A stretch of 5,289 nucleotides of DNA from Xanthobacteraceae bacterium. Its GTDB lineage: Bacteria; Pseudomonadota; Alphaproteobacteria; Rhizobiales; Xanthobacteraceae. The notes under the pieces were generated by a model, which was not told the origin of the DNA, did no database searches, and worked only from the letters and a program-made list of their open reading frames with translations. Below, piece by piece: positions 2-5,289 of the stretch. Where the stretch lies: positions 1-5,289 of the forward strand of contig JASHRR010000781.1 in the NCBI GenBank assembly GCA_030037185.1. The letters run 5' to 3'. The first letter of the stretch is position 1. The number at the start of each line of letters is the position of its first letter. Both the position numbers and the translations under genes were made by a program.

Positions 2-1087
2 GGACCTTGTGCCAACTGCCACAACAACAAGACCGCCGAGGGCAAGACGCCGAACCATCCGGTCACCCAGGCGTCCTGCAATACCTGCCATTTCAACACG
101 GTGTCGTGGGCGGGCGGGATATTACCGCCCGGCACGACCCAGTCCCCAGCGCCGGCCGCGACGACGCCCGCCGCCACCGCGACGACGCCTGCGCCCACGA
201 CGAAGACGCCTGCCGCAACGGGGACGACGCCTGCAGCCACAGCGACGCCGCCGCGAACGGCTGCGATCACTCCCGGCGCAACGTCACCGCCGGGCACAAG
301 CTTGCCAAAGCCGCCAAGCGCTCAAACGTCCCCAAGCGGGCCGAAAGCCCCAACAAAACCGAACCACGCGAGCCTCGTCAGCGGCTGCGCGACCTGTCAC
401 AACGGCGTGGCGGCGGCCGGCAAGCGGGCAAACCACGTCGTCACCACGGCGCCCTGCGAGGGCTGTCACAAGAGCAGCGTCACGTTCGCAGGAGCCCGCA
501 TGAACCACGCCGGGCTGGTCGCCAATTGCGTCAGATGCCATAGCGGTACGATCGCCACCGGGAAGCCGGCAAAACATGTCACCACCAGCGCTCCGTGCGA
601 GACCTGTCACAAGAGCACTGTCAGCTTTGCGGGTGCTCGGATCGACCACGCCACCCTGACCGGGACGTGCGTCAGCTGCCACAACGGTACCACGGCCGAA
701 GGCAGGCCGCCACGGCATCTCGTTACGACGTCGCCTTGCGACACCTGTCACCGAACCACATTCTGGACACCGGTGACATACCGGCACGTGTCGCCCGCTT
801 ACGTAAACCACGGCCCGGGAGTGAGCTGCGACAGCTGTCACGCCGCCGCAAGCGCGCAGAGCGTCGCGTGGAAATTCCCGGCGTTCAGGCCCAATTGCGC
901 GGCATGCCATGTCAATAACTATCGTCCGATGCCGCACGTAAAATTCGAGCGGCCCGTGAAGGTGTACTACTCGGTCGCCGAGCTGCGCGACTGCACCGGC
1001 TCCTGCCACACTTATGCCGACAGCACGCAGCGCACCATCGTGGCGCGGCCTCTCAGCCCTCATCGCGCATTCGGAGGTGGCTGGTGA
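2..1087 (+). CDS. Multiheme c-type cytochrome (at least 11 predicted hemes), 5'-truncated
   Basis: The reading frame is open from base 2, so the start and any signal peptide lie upstream; 361 residues are visible. Ten CXXCH motifs begin at bases 8, 77, 386, 455, 527, 596, 668, 737, 827 and 896, and a CX3CH motif (CTGSCH) begins at 992. Every cysteine in the visible protein belongs to one of these motifs. Exactly eleven histidines lie outside them, which fits bis-histidine ligation of eleven hemes. The paired motifs are mostly 23 residues apart, within a 47-residue repeat of the form CxxCHNGxxAxGKxxxH...PCxxCHKSxVxFAGARxxH. A Pro/Thr/Ala-rich linker (about 116-360) separates the first pair from the rest. 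The protein is probably periplasmic or outer-surface and carries electrons. The repeat resembles multiheme proteins of metal-reducing and iron-oxidising bacteria, but I cannot name a specific family. The stop codon overlaps the start of the barrel gene, pointing to a shared operon. Confidence 0.93.
   Translation, partial: GPCANCHNNKTAEGKTPNHPVTQASCNTCHFNTVSWAGGILPPGTTQSPAPAATTPAATATTPAPTTKTPAATGTTPAATATPPRTAAITPGATSPPGTSLPKPPSAQTSPSGPKAPTKPNHASLVSGCATCHNGVAAAGKRANHVVTTAPCEGCHKSSVTFAGARMNHAGLVANCVRCHSGTIATGKPAKHVTTSAPCETCHKSTVSFAGARIDHATLTGTCVSCHNGTTAEGRPPRHLVTTSPCDTCHRTTFWTPVTYRHVSPAYVNHGPGVSCDSCHAAASAQSVAWKFPAFRPNCAACHVNNYRPMPHVKFERPVKVYYSVAELRDCTGSCHTYADSTQRTIVARPLSPHRAFGGGW
158..241 (+). 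repeat. Four 21-bp tandem repeats coding a Thr-Pro-Ala heptapeptide
   Basis: Four consecutive 21-base units encode ATTPAAT, ATTPAPT, TKTPAAT and GTTPAAT, followed by a decayed fifth unit starting ATPP. They form the core of a low-complexity Pro/Thr/Ala linker in the cytochrome that has no cysteine and no histidine until about base 364. Such linkers are usually extended and flexible, so this one probably separates two heme-bearing segments. The period in DNA suggests growth by slippage or unequal recombination. Confidence 0.85.
386..808 (+). repeat. Three tandem 141-bp (47-residue) di-heme modules
   Basis: The heme motifs at 386, 455, 527, 596, 668 and 737 are spaced alternately 69 and 72 bases, giving three units of 141 bases with two hemes each. 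Shared residues include CHNG or CHSG, a G(K/R) followed by a histidine, TT(A/S)PC before the second motif, and CHKS with FAGAR after it in the first two units. The third unit diverges after its second motif (CHRTTFWTP). The pair at 8 and 77 has the same 69-base spacing and is a fourth, separated copy. The pair at 827 and 896 keeps the 69-base spacing but little else. The DNA copies have clearly diverged, so the duplication is old and kept at protein level. Confidence 0.85.
992..1009 (+). other. Atypical CX3CH heme-binding motif
   Basis: The codons read C-T-G-S-C-H, with three rather than two residues between the cysteines. It lies 32 residues after the last normal motif, near the C-terminus. 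No other cysteine is free in the visible protein, and a histidine (SPH, near base 1060) is available downstream as a second axial ligand. Non-standard heme motifs with longer spacers are known in some multiheme cytochromes, and some need a dedicated lyase. Heme binding here is inferred. Confidence 0.6.
1073..1077 (+). promoter_or_regulatory. Ribosome binding site for the TPR/beta-barrel gene
   Basis: GGAGG lies 6 bases before the GTG at 1084, inside the last codons of the cytochrome gene. Good spacing, and the 4-base GTGA overlap with the upstream stop, support this GTG as the start and suggest translational coupling. Confidence 0.8.
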
Positions 1088-3129
1088 TCGCCCGCGACAT
1101 CCGCCGTCCGCTTGCGGTCCTCGTTGTGGTGAAGGCAGCGCTGGGGGTGTCGCAACCGGCGTGGGCTCAGGCGAGCCCCGACAGCAGCGAAACAAACACA
1201 GTCAAAAATCGATCTGCTGGTTCGATTTCCGCTGCAGATTTGAGGGTCGCGGCCGCCTCGATGGACGAAGGCCGAGCAGCCCTCAAGCATAGCACCTTTG
1301 GCGAGGCGATCCGGCTCTTCAAGAAAGTCCTCGGATATCCGGAGAACCAGTACAGCGCCGAAGCCCTGGAGCTGCTCGGTGTGTCGCTTCAGAAGAACGG
1401 CCAGCTCAAGGAAGCGCAGTCGGCGTACGAAGATTGTCTTCGCCGCTATCCGACCGGCGAACGGAGCGAACGCGTGAAGCAGCGCCTCGCCGGCGTCGTC
1501 ACGGCGCGAGATGAAGCACCCGCAGTGCTTCGCGCACCGGCTGAGCTGCCCGGCAAGGCGCTGCCGATCGGCAAATTCACGCGATCCAATGAGACCACCT
1601 GGACCCTCGTTGGCAGCGTGTCGTCGTTCTATATACGTGATGACGCCAATACCACCGCGCGCGACACTTCGCTGGCCCCCAATGTCGCCGCGACCGTTGA
1701 TGATAATGCCGTTCACCAGGACGAAATAATGACCACTGTCGATTTGCTCGCGACGTGGAACGACGACAAGACTTCGGGAAAAATCCGTTTCAACGGCGGG
1801 GAAGAGCAACGGTTTTCAACCGATCAGAATGGCCCAACCGGCGACCAGAAAACCCAATTTGGGGTCGCGCAGGCGAGCCTCGATATGGTGGTAAAGGATT
1901 GGAACCTGCGCACGGTGGCAGGCCGCCAGACCTACAATGGCGATGGCGTGTTTGGTCGTTTCGATGGCGCCCTGGTCAGCTGGGAGGCTCTTCCGCTGTT
2001 GCGGTTCGACGCCGTCGCCGGATCGCCGGCAAACAGCCGCTATAACTTGCCGTTCACGGCGGAACGATGGTTCTACGGCGGGGCCGTAGGCACCGGGCCG
2101 CTGTTTGGAGGGCTGGACGCATCGGTCTATTACAACGAGGAGCGCGGCCGGTGGCTGGTCGATCGCGAGGCGGTGGGCACCGACATTAAGTACACTGACC
2201 CGACCAAGTTTACTTTCGCCAACGTCGACTACGACCTGCGGTTTCGGCAGCTCGGCGAGGCAGTCTGGTCGGGGTCGTGGACGTTGCCAGCCGGCACGAC
2301 CGTCTATGGCGGTGCCGATTACCGCCGGGTGCCGTTCCTGTCGAGCTGGAATGTCCTGCTCAATCAGCCATTCGGCACACTCTACGACTTCCTCAAGAAT
2401 CAGGTGGCGATCGGACAGCCGCTCACCAACGAACAGGTGAACCAGCTCGCGCTCGCTGAAACACCAGTATACAAGTCGGTGATGCTCGGCTTTTCCCAGC
2501 CGCTTACGGACAAGCTCACCTTCAGTGCGGATGGCACGGCCGCGAACTTGAGCCAGACGATCACACCGGCTGCAGTGCTTGATCCTTCCTTGGCGCAGCT
2601 CGCCACGGGCAACGAGTATTACGCGACCGCGCAGCTCATCAGCACCAACATCTTCAAAGAAGGCGACATGTATATCTCCGCCTTCCATTATGCGCAGCAG
2701 TCAACGAACACCCAGTACGTCATCGATTTCAACGCCAGGTATCCGATCATCAATGACCTGGTGCTGGGCCCACGCTTGAGGCTCGGTTACAACGTAGTGA
2801 GCGGCGGCCTCGTGCAGTATACGGCGATGCCATCAATCCTGATCGACTATAATTGGAGCCCCAATCTGACTTTTGAAGGCGAGATCGGGACGCAATTCAC
2901 GCGCGGCAACGGTGGCATACTACAGGCCGGCGTCACCACGCCCGGCGTCACCACGAACGATACCGAGCTCTTTTTAACGCTTGGATTCCGCTACAGTTTC
3001 GATGTCGACGGCAGCAAGCTGGCCGATCTCAGCAAGCCACGGTCGCCGGCAGCGGCGGCGATCTGCCGGTACACGGTTCGCCCCGATGGTAGTTGCACCA
3101 CCCCCTCGTCGGCTAGTACCAGCCAATGA
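1084..3129 (+). CDS. TPR-containing predicted outer-membrane beta-barrel protein
   Basis: The 681-residue protein starts with GTG, chosen for the GGAGG site 6 bases upstream and the GTGA overlap with the cytochrome stop. Residues 1-28 look like a Sec signal peptide, with likely cleavage after AWA (28/29); a lysine at 17 inside the hydrophobic stretch is slightly unusual. Residues about 55-135 form TPR-like helices (EAIRLFKKVL near 74-83; SAEALELLGV followed by AQSAYEDCLRRYP at 91-123), similar to periplasmic TPR proteins of the YbgF type. From about 171 to 639 alternating polar/aromatic stretches with many Tyr, Trp, Gly and Asn suggest a beta-barrel, ending in LTLGFRYSF, which resembles a final outer-membrane strand. 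A 42-residue tail with two cysteines (661 and 671) follows. It has no CXXCH motif. Coupling to a multiheme cytochrome suggests a porin-like or surface partner in electron transfer. I do not recognise it as MtrB or PioB, and the exact role is unknown. Confidence 0.87.
   Translation: MIARDIRRPLAVLVVVKAALGVSQPAWAQASPDSSETNTVKNRSAGSISAADLRVAAASMDEGRAALKHSTFGEAIRLFKKVLGYPENQYSAEALELLGVSLQKNGQLKEAQSAYEDCLRRYPTGERSERVKQRLAGVVTARDEAPAVLRAPAELPGKALPIGKFTRSNETTWTLVGSVSSFYIRDDANTTARDTSLAPNVAATVDDNAVHQDEIMTTVDLLATWNDDKTSGKIRFNGGEEQRFSTDQNGPTGDQKTQFGVAQASLDMVVKDWNLRTVAGRQTYNGDGVFGRFDGALVSWEALPLLRFDAVAGSPANSRYNLPFTAERWFYGGAVGTGPLFGGLDASVYYNEERGRWLVDREAVGTDIKYTDPTKFTFANVDYDLRFRQLGEAVWSGSWTLPAGTTVYGGADYRRVPFLSSWNVLLNQPFGTLYDFLKNQVAIGQPLTNEQVNQLALAETPVYKSVMLGFSQPLTDKLTFSADGTAANLSQTITPAAVLDPSLAQLATGNEYYATAQLISTNIFKEGDMYISAFHYAQQSTNTQYVIDFNARYPIINDLVLGPRLRLGYNVVSGGLVQYTAMPSILIDYNWSPNLTFEGEIGTQFTRGNGGILQAGVTTPGVTTNDTELFLTLGFRYSFDVDGSKLADLSKPRSPAAAAICRYTVRPDGSCTTPSSASTSQ
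2926..2955 (+). repeat. 15-bp tandem duplication inside the barrel gene
   Basis: Two adjacent 15-base units differ at a single base (gccggcgtcaccacg, then cccggcgtcaccacg) and encode AGVTT and PGVTT. They lie in a probable loop or turn before the final predicted strand, where a five-residue in-frame insertion could be tolerated. Confidence 0.8.
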
Positions 3130-3367: not shown

Positions 3368-5289
3368 ATGGCACCAGAGATCGGTTATTTCGCGCTCCTT
3401 CTCGCGCTTTTTGTTTCTGCGGTGCAATCGGCAACCGTGTTTGTGTCGGCGCGTCGCCGTGATCCGGCAGTGGCGGCATTTGCCGACCAGGCCGCGCTGG
3501 CCCAATTCATGTTCCTTGTTGTTGCATTCGCGTCCTTGATCTACGCGTTCGTAACGTCAGATTTTTCCGTCGAAGTCGTGGCAGCCAATTCCCATACGAC
3601 AAAGCCGCTCCTTTATAAGATTGCCGGAGTGTGGGGCAACCATGAAGGCTCGATGCTGCTCTGGGTTCTCATTCTATCGCTGTTTGGTGCGGCCGTGGCG
3701 GTATTCGGGCGCAACCTGCCCGACCGGTTGCGGACCGACGTGCTTGGCGTGCACGGAATGGTGGGGTTCGGTTTCCTGGCCTTCATCGCACTGACATCCA
3801 ACCCATTTGCCCGTCTCGCCCAAGCACCTGATGACGGCAATGGATTAAATCCGATCCTGCAGGATCCGGGCCTCGCCATTCATCCACCGTTTCTTTATTT
3901 GGGCTATGTCGGGTTCTCGATGGCTTTCTCATTTGCGGTAGCGGCGTTGATTCACGGCAAGGTCGATGCGTGCTGGGCGCGTTGGGTGCGACCTTGGGTG
4001 CTGGCGGCCTGGTGCTTCTTGACCATTGGTATCACCCTGGGGAGTGCATGGGCCTATTACACGCTGGGCTGGGGCGGGTGGTGGTTCTGGGATCCGGTCG
4101 AGAACGCGTCGCTGATGCCGTGGATTTCGGGGACCGCGCTCCTGCACTCGGCGCTGGTGGTCGAACGCCGTAACGCGCTCGTCAGCTGGACCATACTGCT
4201 TGCGATCCTGACGTTTTCGCTGAGTCTCATCGGCACTTTTCTGGTGCGCTCCGGCGTGCTCACCAGCGTGCATGCGTTTGCCCTCGATCCGGCCCGCGGC
4301 GTATTCATTCTGGGGCTGATCCTGGTTGCCACCGGTGGGGCCCTGACGCTGTATGCTTTTCGCGTGCCTCACCTCAAATATGGTGCTCCCTTCGCGCCGA
4401 TCAGCCGCGAGAGCGGCCTCGCCGCCAACAACGTGTTGCTGAGTGCCGCAGCCGCCACCGTATTTCTCGGAACATTTTATCCACTCGTCATCGACACGAT
4501 AGGCGATGACAAGATTTCGGTGGGACCACCTTACTATAACAGAACGTTCGTTCCGATCATGGTTCCCCTGCTTGTGATTATGGTGGTCGGGCCGATCCTC
4601 AAATGGAAGCGCGACAATCTCCGCGCGGCTGTCGGTCGTTTGAGATACCCGCTGTTGGCGGGTCTTTTCGCCGCAATCGTGGTGCTGCTTGCTACATTTG
4701 GCCGCAACGCATTCGCGGCGGCATTCATGGCGGTGGCGGCTTGGCTCATCATCGGCTCGTTTGCCGCTTTGGCGTACCGGACGCGCTTTGGCGATGCCTC
4801 GTTGTGGACGACGCTGCGGCTCGCGCGCGGAACGCCGCGCGCATTCTATGGGCTTGTTATTGCCCATGCCGGGATGGGCATAACGGTTGCCGGAATTACC
4901 GGGATGACAAGCTGGGCCAGTGAAAAGATCGACATGCTGCGACCCGGCCAGAGCCTCGAGCTGTCGGGCTATGTGTTGCGATTGCGCGCGGTCGATGACG
5001 TGACCGGTCCGAATTACGACGCCGAGCGGGGCAGCTTCGAGGTAACGCGCAACGGCCGTTTGGTGGCTCGGCTGTTCAGCGAGCGGCGTTTCTATCCGGT
5101 CCGCCAGGAGCAGACCATCGCGGCCGGCATCAGAACAAATTTGCTGTCCAATCTGTACGTTGCGATCGGCGAGCCCAACGGCAGCGGCGCCTGGGCGGTC
5201 CGCTTCTATTATCACCCATTCATGCCGTGGGTGTGGATCGGGGCGATAATCATGGCGCTCGGCGGGCTCGTCTCGTTGTCGGACCGGCG
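3368..5289 (+). CDS. ccmF: Cytochrome c heme lyase subunit CcmF, 3'-truncated by the window
   Basis: CcmF is the polytopic inner-membrane core of the System I heme lyase (with CcmH/CcmI). It takes heme from holo-CcmE and joins it to the cysteines of apocytochrome c on the periplasmic side. The 640 visible residues are close to full family length, so only a few C-terminal residues should be missing. The WWD signature is intact (WGGWWFWDP at 235-243, continuing to W252). The conserved histidines are present: H172 (HPPFLYLGY), H260, H302 (GVLTSVHAF) and H500 (IAHAG), matching E. coli H173, H261, H303 and H491. Other family marks are NHEGSMLLW, SVGPPYYN, a periplasmic domain before the end with LYVAIGEP and WAVRFYY, and a final membrane segment (WVWIGAIIMALGG). 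The start is ATG with a good ribosome site and an in-frame stop just upstream. No ccmE lies directly before it, unlike the common ccmE-ccmF order, so it may be a second copy or a specialised (NrfE-like) paralogue; sequence alone cannot separate these. Confidence 0.96.
   Translation, partial: MAPEIGYFALLLALFVSAVQSATVFVSARRRDPAVAAFADQAALAQFMFLVVAFASLIYAFVTSDFSVEVVAANSHTTKPLLYKIAGVWGNHEGSMLLWVLILSLFGAAVAVFGRNLPDRLRTDVLGVHGMVGFGFLAFIALTSNPFARLAQAPDDGNGLNPILQDPGLAIHPPFLYLGYVGFSMAFSFAVAALIHGKVDACWARWVRPWVLAAWCFLTIGITLGSAWAYYTLGWGGWWFWDPVENASLMPWISGTALLHSALVVERRNALVSWTILLAILTFSLSLIGTFLVRSGVLTSVHAFALDPARGVFILGLILVATGGALTLYAFRVPHLKYGAPFAPISRESGLAANNVLLSAAAATVFLGTFYPLVIDTIGDDKISVGPPYYNRTFVPIMVPLLVIMVVGPILKWKRDNLRAAVGRLRYPLLAGLFAAIVVLLATFGRNAFAAAFMAVAAWLIIGSFAALAYRTRFGDASLWTTLRLARGTPRAFYGLVIAHAGMGITVAGITGMTSWASEKIDMLRPGQSLELSGYVLRLRAVDDVTGPNYDAERGSFEVTRNGRLVARLFSERRFYPVRQEQTIAAGIRTNLLSNLYVAIGEPNGSGAWAVRFYYHPFMPWVWIGAIIMALGGLVSLSDR

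Follow-up and report, generated by a model that had tools for sequence, protein, structure and literature searches.

A TPR-bearing porin of probable PCC3 type beside a multiheme cytochrome gene in a Xanthobacteraceae contig

Contig JASHRR010000781.1 of a Xanthobacteraceae bacterium (assembly GCA_030037185.1) carries, in the whole stretch of 5,289 bases analysed here (the window), a gene for a predicted outer-membrane protein directly behind a gene for a multiheme c-type cytochrome (MHC). A first-pass annotation had read the pair as a possible new porin-cytochrome conduit whose barrel bears an N-terminal tetratricopeptide repeat (TPR) region, and the question is whether the locus represents a new conduit type or one already described. 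Through sequence comparison, we place the gene among the porins of PCC3, a published class of proposed porin-cytochrome conduits found in iron oxidisers and many other bacteria, and not in a new conduit type; it very probably encodes the outer-membrane porin of a PCC3-type conduit. Of the earlier proposal, a conduit with an N-terminal TPR stood, borne by the predicted fold and the conserved gene pairing, and the newness was lost.

Assignment of the window porin to PCC3

He et al. (2017, PMC5566968; published statements are taken here and below from the available passages of each paper) described PCC3 as a porin together with two MHCs, one extracellular (median 34 hemes) and one periplasmic (median 21), and an inner-membrane protein (IMP) of about 300 aa with two WX3HX13H motifs, an SGXXG motif and two putative heme-b sites. 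Slit_0867-0870 and Slit_1446-1449 of Sideroxydans lithotrophicus ES-1 are published PCC3 clusters (PMC8788666, PMC12016527). A chromosome of 3,003,656 bp from the family of locus L080 bears one cluster at 853 kb (porin/17/21 hemes/IMP) and another at 1.44 Mb (IMP/24/28 hemes/porin); because these heme counts match the published Slit clusters, the chromosome was taken to be that of ES-1. Its two porins (L089 and L090) matched the window porin with 99.6 and 85.6 bits, and the alignments spanned the TPR to near the barrel end (window residues 54-614 and 51-637). With 24 open reading frames (ORFs) searched, the E-values were 1.9e-31 and 3.2e-27; scaled to a million sequences, they become 8e-27 and 1.4e-22.

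The other PCC3 components were found in the relatives. Among 35 loci with at least 7 kb of upstream sequence, 29 contained at least two MHC ORFs upstream and 25 an IMP bearing both the WX3HX13H pair and SGXXG. In the relative G233 (55%-identical porin, 5.45-Mb contig) the order was IMP, 18-heme MHC, extracytoplasmic function (ECF) sigma factor, 61-heme MHC, porin and then ccm genes, and the PCC3 IMP motifs were present in G233 and in both ES-1 clusters. The periplasmic-type MHC had 18 hemes in G233 and 21-24 in many loci. We assigned the window porin to PCC3 because it is homologous to both ES-1 porins over the TPR and the barrel, and because its relatives carry the PCC3 IMP and a second MHC; an MHC adjoins the porin here as well. 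The ECF sigma factor gene (L088:7011-7661), located between the 18-heme and 61-heme MHC genes of G233, is possibly a dedicated regulator.

Three differences from published PCC3 were noted. The window porin is shorter and has neither the N-terminal domain found in both ES-1 porins nor a SPOR domain; its model has 22 strands, whereas the transmembrane regions predicted by He et al. number up to 42; and a ccmF gene follows it, whereas ccmF, ccmG, ccmH, ccmI and ALA (5-aminolevulinate) synthase gave no match among the 24 ORFs of the two ES-1 stretches.

The window contains three genes on the plus strand, as revealed by the ORF list and the Pfam and NCBIfam scans: the 3' piece of the MHC gene, the porin gene and ccmF/nrfE. 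The MHC stop codon TGA (1085-1087) shares two bases with the porin start GTG (1084-1086), so the GTGA link drawn in the first-pass annotation holds, with 1084-1087 serving as stop and start both. GC content in the porin ORF was 0.74 at codon position 3 versus 0.48 at position 2. The features are as follows.

2..1087, + strand: multiheme c-type cytochrome, 3' part, 361 aa, ten CXXCH and one CX3CH, read from sequence
128..364, + strand: heme-free Thr/Pro/Ala-rich spacer in the MHC, flanked by CXXCH motifs at residues 26 and 129
971..1084, + strand: MHC C-terminal tail with ELRDCTGSCH, ending GGGW; motif conserved in many relatives
1073..1077, + strand: ribosome-binding-site-like box GGAGG
1084..1087, + strand: stop/start overlap GTGA between MHC and porin genes
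1084..3129, + strand: PCC3-type outer-membrane porin (by homology and predicted fold), GTG start, 681 aa
1084..1170, + strand: probable Sec signal peptide, residues 1-29 (..AWA-Q), judged from the residues alone without a signal-peptide program
1231..1512, + strand: TPR module of five helices, residues 50-143 (Pfam and AlphaFold), presumably on the periplasmic side
1513..1593, + strand: linker between TPR and barrel, residues 144-170, with pLDDT (the model's per-residue confidence) <50 at 144-166
1597..3009, + strand: 22-strand beta-barrel, residues 172-642 (AlphaFold)
2344..2460, + strand: helical insert between two barrel strands, residues 421-459 (AlphaFold)
3368..5287, + strand: ccmF/nrfE heme lyase gene, open at the 3' end, TIGR00353 match, PCC3-linked CcmF lineage

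The AlphaFold model of the window porin (mean pLDDT 84.0, pTM 0.69) contained five TPR helices followed by 22 strands, in agreement with the outer-membrane TPR-plus-barrel protein predicted at first reading. Pfam TPR matches were located at residues 53-136 (TPR_2, E 4.3e-05, 23.8 bits); every Pfam TPR model scored under its own cut-off in the window porin, and the close homologue L001 scored above that of TPR_16 (34.3 vs 32.7 bits). A profile scan showed likeness of the TPR to YbgF/CpoB and BamD, and with a porin-family profile against PDB all of the matches listed (60 of 68 rows) fell in the TPR part. Foldseek and VIA searches with the window model returned generic barrels; there was no MtrB row among the matches listed, which excludes nothing.

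In combining a barrel with a multiheme cytochrome across the outer membrane, the pair resembles MtrAB, MtoAB and PioAB, and it differs from them by the TPR of the porin and the 11 heme motifs of the partner. Kinship with MtrB/PioB was not recovered: Pfam and NCBIfam both hold an MtrB/PioB model, and no such family was matched by the window porin at E <=1 in either. A decaheme partner of MtrA/DmsE type was also rejected, with 33.1 bits for TIGR03508 against a cut-off of 192.2 and 11 heme motifs present though the protein is cut. The Geobacter OmbB-OmaB-OmcB system, compared by description only, is alike in having a porin with MHC partners, and He et al. reported that Geobacter porin-cytochrome homologues were absent from their Fe(II)-oxidiser set (PMC5566968).

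Conservation of the porin-cytochrome pair

A protein search with the window porin identified 420 relatives at E <=1e-3 among 7996 scored candidates (best 120 of 420 listed), and a second search with the L080 porin as query gave 734 (best 120 of 734 listed). A scan of species genomes yielded 117 loci, of which 80 were kept and 79 of those 80 analysed (L066 gave no porin ORF). The titles of the kept loci included Alpha-, Beta- and Gammaproteobacteria, Nitrospirae/Nitrospinaceae and others. Since the loci were fetched by two peptide patterns, from the TPR and the barrel of the porin respectively, their neighbouring genes are an independent result.

In 61 of the 68 loci with at least 500 bp upstream, an MHC (defined for this count as at least four CXXCH, the only motif counted) ended on the porin's strand no more than 1 kb ahead of the porin; only 2 of 71 had one within 1 kb downstream. 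Among distant ORFs of at least 200 aa, used as control, 2 of 188 had four or more CXXCH. The porin-MHC pairing is conserved beyond chance, and the survey of gene-pair conservation proposed with the first reading comes out on its side. Of the seven misses, a 33-heme MHC was present in L003 and dropped by the overlap rule, MHCs were located farther upstream in L019 and L039, on the opposite strand in L079 and elsewhere on the contig in L057, and L030 offered 703 bp only. L063, with no heme gene in 9.75 kb, was the sole miss of that kind. ORF choice followed a greedy length rule; the porin starts of L003 and L028 are over-extended, and the ORF chosen in L016 is wrong. Porin matches were found in 5 of 296 genomes (3 strong) from the family of the closest relative (G001) and in 74 of 158 from the family of L080; so patchy a distribution would be expected for a transferred cassette.

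The window MHC piece matched Cytochrome_C7 (5.8e-16, Pfam) and is cut by the window edge, with 11 heme motifs in the remaining part. In the relatives, porin-adjacent MHCs had 5 to 74 CXXCH in the available DNA, many being cut by contig ends; that of G233 had 61 hemes, and in L065 (1374-9029) the ORF is 2551 aa long with 74 CXXCH. The motif EL[RQ][DN]Cx[GS][AS]CH was detected in the last 90 aa of 32/64 porin-adjacent MHCs and of 1/37 other MHCs from the same loci. The sole non-adjacent carrier comes from L028; the porin start of this locus is over-extended, so that the ORF may be the adjacent MHC itself. An aromatic C-terminal end was found in 47/64 porin-adjacent MHCs versus 2/37 others. The window MHC tail has both characters, with a CX3CH heme site in the motif and an aromatic end, and this tail may be the end that meets the porin.

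Slit_1448, the MHC gene adjoining an ES-1 porin, was annotated as extracellular (PMC12016527). Because of the PCC3 gene order, the window MHC could by its position be read as the extracellular MHC of PCC3. We set aside the docking of this adjacent MHC by the TPR, as had been suggested, because its ES-1 counterpart Slit_1448 is annotated as extracellular; more likely, a periplasmic TPR would meet the separate periplasmic MHC of 18-24 hemes.

The TPR module and the linked ccmF

The TPR columns were covered in all 103 rows of an alignment (38 search hits or the window, and 65 locus porins); the rows were hand-chosen, and column coverage alone is no homology test. Across the 65 locus porins, E96, A111 and L135 were invariant, and R130, V131 and R134 were conserved in at least 91%. 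The TPR is the constant part of the sampled porins, the ES-1 porins included. Other modules vary. Of 60 homologues scanned, 30 had SPOR. In 62 of 79 loci the porin is fused to an N-terminal domain without a Pfam name, and 8 of these 62 have a stand-alone copy of that domain in addition. The domain was located only outside the chosen porin ORF in 6 of 79 loci (among them L016, an ORF-choice error) and was not found in 11 of 79, of which 7 are cut at the porin 5' end. Neither SPOR nor this domain exists in the porins of the window and L001, which consist of TPR and barrel only.

Genes of about 150-200 aa encoding the same N-terminal domain alone occur at L026:9016-9498, L031:8632-9108, L033:8444-9037 and in other loci. 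The domain model was built from nine such genes, which therefore match by construction; its profile had no PDB sequence match at E <=5, and a Pfam scan of eight of the genes gave nothing for seven and one chance-level match (E 0.09). In the model of the Novosphingobium homologue L010 (mean pLDDT 85.2), strands at 41-146, which on our own reading look beta-sandwich-like, precede SPOR (186-268), TPR (294-385) and barrel (407-888). The close homologues P0003, P0016 and P0025 (788-835 aa) have a second TPR block ahead of the first.

The TPR module of PCC3 porins is apparently undescribed. We found no joint mention of PCC3, TPR and cytochrome in the papers searched (supplements, preprints and most subscription papers lying outside this scope). 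In the accessible main texts, "tetratricopeptide" and "TPR" are absent from PMC5566968, PMC12442390 and PMC12016527, "tetratricopeptide" from PMC10734462, and "TPR" from PMC8788666 and PMC13386937. SPOR and the N-terminal domain, the MHC tail and the CcmF lineage were likewise unmentioned in the PCC3 papers searched. Tetratricopeptide repeats were named alongside a porin-cytochrome or beta-barrel in one paper found, on GSU3278 of Geobacter sulfurreducens, an outer-membrane TPR protein required for growth on electrodes (PMC5585712, in passages without PCC3).

Downstream of the porin, the product of 3368-5287 resembles CcmF/NrfE over nearly the whole family model TIGR00353 (664 bits against a 569-bit cut-off). 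Of the 80 loci, 23 had ccmF in the fetched flanks and 6 had ALA synthase; the latter gene was seen beside PCC3 in L002, L006, L009, L035, L040 and L045, and also at L086:3646-4920. In G233 the porin is followed by ccmF, ccmG (DsbE), ccmH, ccmI and ALA synthase. Two full ccmF genes exist in each of G233 and G001, one of them beside PCC3; in G217 and G003 the ccmF matches were split or partial, save one full copy in G217. Among 20 further genomes, nine alphaproteobacterial ones (G006, G304-G308, G310-G312) had more than one ccmF match, some split or partial, four (G004, G302, G303, G309) had a single full-length ccmF, the PCC3-linked one, and G005 and G313-G318 had no ccmF in the PCC3 flank. G233 has three ALA synthases, one beside PCC3, and in G304 the PCC3-linked one was the only match above the cut-off; counter to a simple rule, G002 has three and none was found in its PCC3 flank.

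A CcmF tree was computed from 27 hand-chosen rows (16 PCC3-linked, seven second copies, four sole copies); it is unrooted, and "housekeeping" in it merely denotes a copy elsewhere in the genome. The CcmFs of the window, L001, G233 and seven other PCC3-linked copies formed one starred branch (100/99), and the second copies of six genomes from this branch fall outside it. Six sphingomonad PCC3-linked CcmFs grouped separately, next to the only sphingomonad second copy included. Branches are long for L094 and L097, and the tree contains no second copy for the window, L009, L049 or L058. From these sequences, a specialised CcmF seems to have been passed on together with PCC3 in some of the Alphaproteobacteria, the window included. 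L049, labelled Deltaproteobacteria, has very short CcmF branches with the alphaproteobacterial L009 and L058, and its label is probably a binning error.

A published link of PCC3 with ccm was not found: among the papers listed (15 of 74 and 15 of 97 rows), PCC3 and ccmF occurred together in one, an unrelated Pseudomonas Mn study (PMC9634551), and "ccm" is absent from the accessible text of PMC5566968 and PMC12016527. CcmH/NrfF and CcmH/NrfG were reported among the genes distinct to iron-oxidising Gallionellaceae, in a passage without a PCC3 link (PMC10734462).

A proposed conduit and its alternatives

We propose the following picture of how these parts work together. Hemes would cross the outer membrane through the 22-strand barrel. 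The adjacent MHC, large in relatives and with 11 heme motifs seen here, would be the outer arm, and a periplasmic MHC of 18-24 hemes, expected upstream beyond the window, the inner arm; the IMP with its two putative heme-b sites would link the conduit to the quinone pool. Hung beneath the barrel by a flexible linker, the TPR would grip or position the periplasmic wire at the barrel mouth, a putative docking of the periplasmic MHC, and the following ccmF (with ccmH and ccmI too in the closest relative) would attach heme to the heme-rich proteins. As a tentative proposal, possible rather than probable, we consider this a PCC3 with its own scaffold and assembly line: a TPR clamp for the heme wire, an outer MHC usually ending in a porin-docking tail, and a cassette that several alphaproteobacteria, the window's lineage included, inherited with a specialised CcmF and in some cases with an extra ALA synthase. 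One transferable block would then build the wire and supply its heme, up to 60 or more hemes.

Several observations weigh against the PCC3-type conduit as pictured here. The periplasmic MHC and IMP of the window organism itself were not seen and would lie beyond the window, and the strict IMP motif was absent from 10 of the 35 loci with long upstream sequence. One of the fetching peptide patterns sits in the TPR, and TPR-less homologues may be under-sampled. The L063 homologue (9752-11596) adjoins a heme-free, glycine-rich ORF (2-9292) of at least 3096 aa, and the porin may there have been put to use for a different cargo. The two ccmF genes of G002 both lie outside its PCC3 flank. Compared with thiosulfate, levels of both ES-1 PCC3 clusters were reduced on Fe(II)-citrate, and they also fell after a spike of FeCl2 (PMC8788666); Slit_1448, the outer MHC, was 0 in all columns of the proteome table, in which the porin Slit_1449 had values throughout (PMC12016527). 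No demonstrated function for any PCC3 was found in the accessible parts of the PCC3 papers.

The periplasmic modules (the TPR, and in many homologues SPOR and the N-terminal domain) might instead tether the porin to peptidoglycan or assembly factors without any docking of cytochromes. The presence of SPOR in half of the scanned homologues, the fusion of the N-terminal domain in 62 of 79 loci and the YbgF/CpoB and BamD likeness of the TPR profile all speak for such a tether; however, the porins of the window and L001 have the TPR with neither of the other two modules, so that the TPR is not simply an accessory of SPOR, and its constancy would fit a conduit role better than peptidoglycan anchoring. 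We regard the tether as rather unlikely. Lower still, and quite improbable, stands a secretion role, in which the barrel would chiefly bring the giant MHC to the surface or keep it there and contain no transmembrane wire, even with the tight porin-MHC coupling and the frequent aromatic MHC end (47/64 vs 2/37) in its favour.

PgaA and BcsC exporters also consist of a TPR followed by a barrel, and by this layout the window protein could be a polysaccharide exporter standing beside a cytochrome gene by chance. Profile models for exporters of this type exist, and none was matched by the window porin at E <=1 in Pfam or NCBIfam (no search of the flanks for polysaccharide genes was made); together with the MHC as upstream neighbour in 61/68 loci, this makes the exporter hardly credible.

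The proposed PCC3 conduit most likely serves to exchange electrons with an external donor or acceptor, and Fe(II) oxidation is neither shown nor excluded by the data cited. The TPR, the MHC tail and the linked CcmF are mutable parts, through which the assembly of the conduit and the holding of the wire in the pore could be probed, and the linked CcmF bears on whether large MHCs depend on a heme-attachment apparatus of their own. In Sideroxydans CL21, expression of the two PCC3 copies exceeded the mean; towards the iron-oxidising stage copy 1 went down and copy 2 up, the change being significant only for the IMP of copy 2 (PMC12442390).

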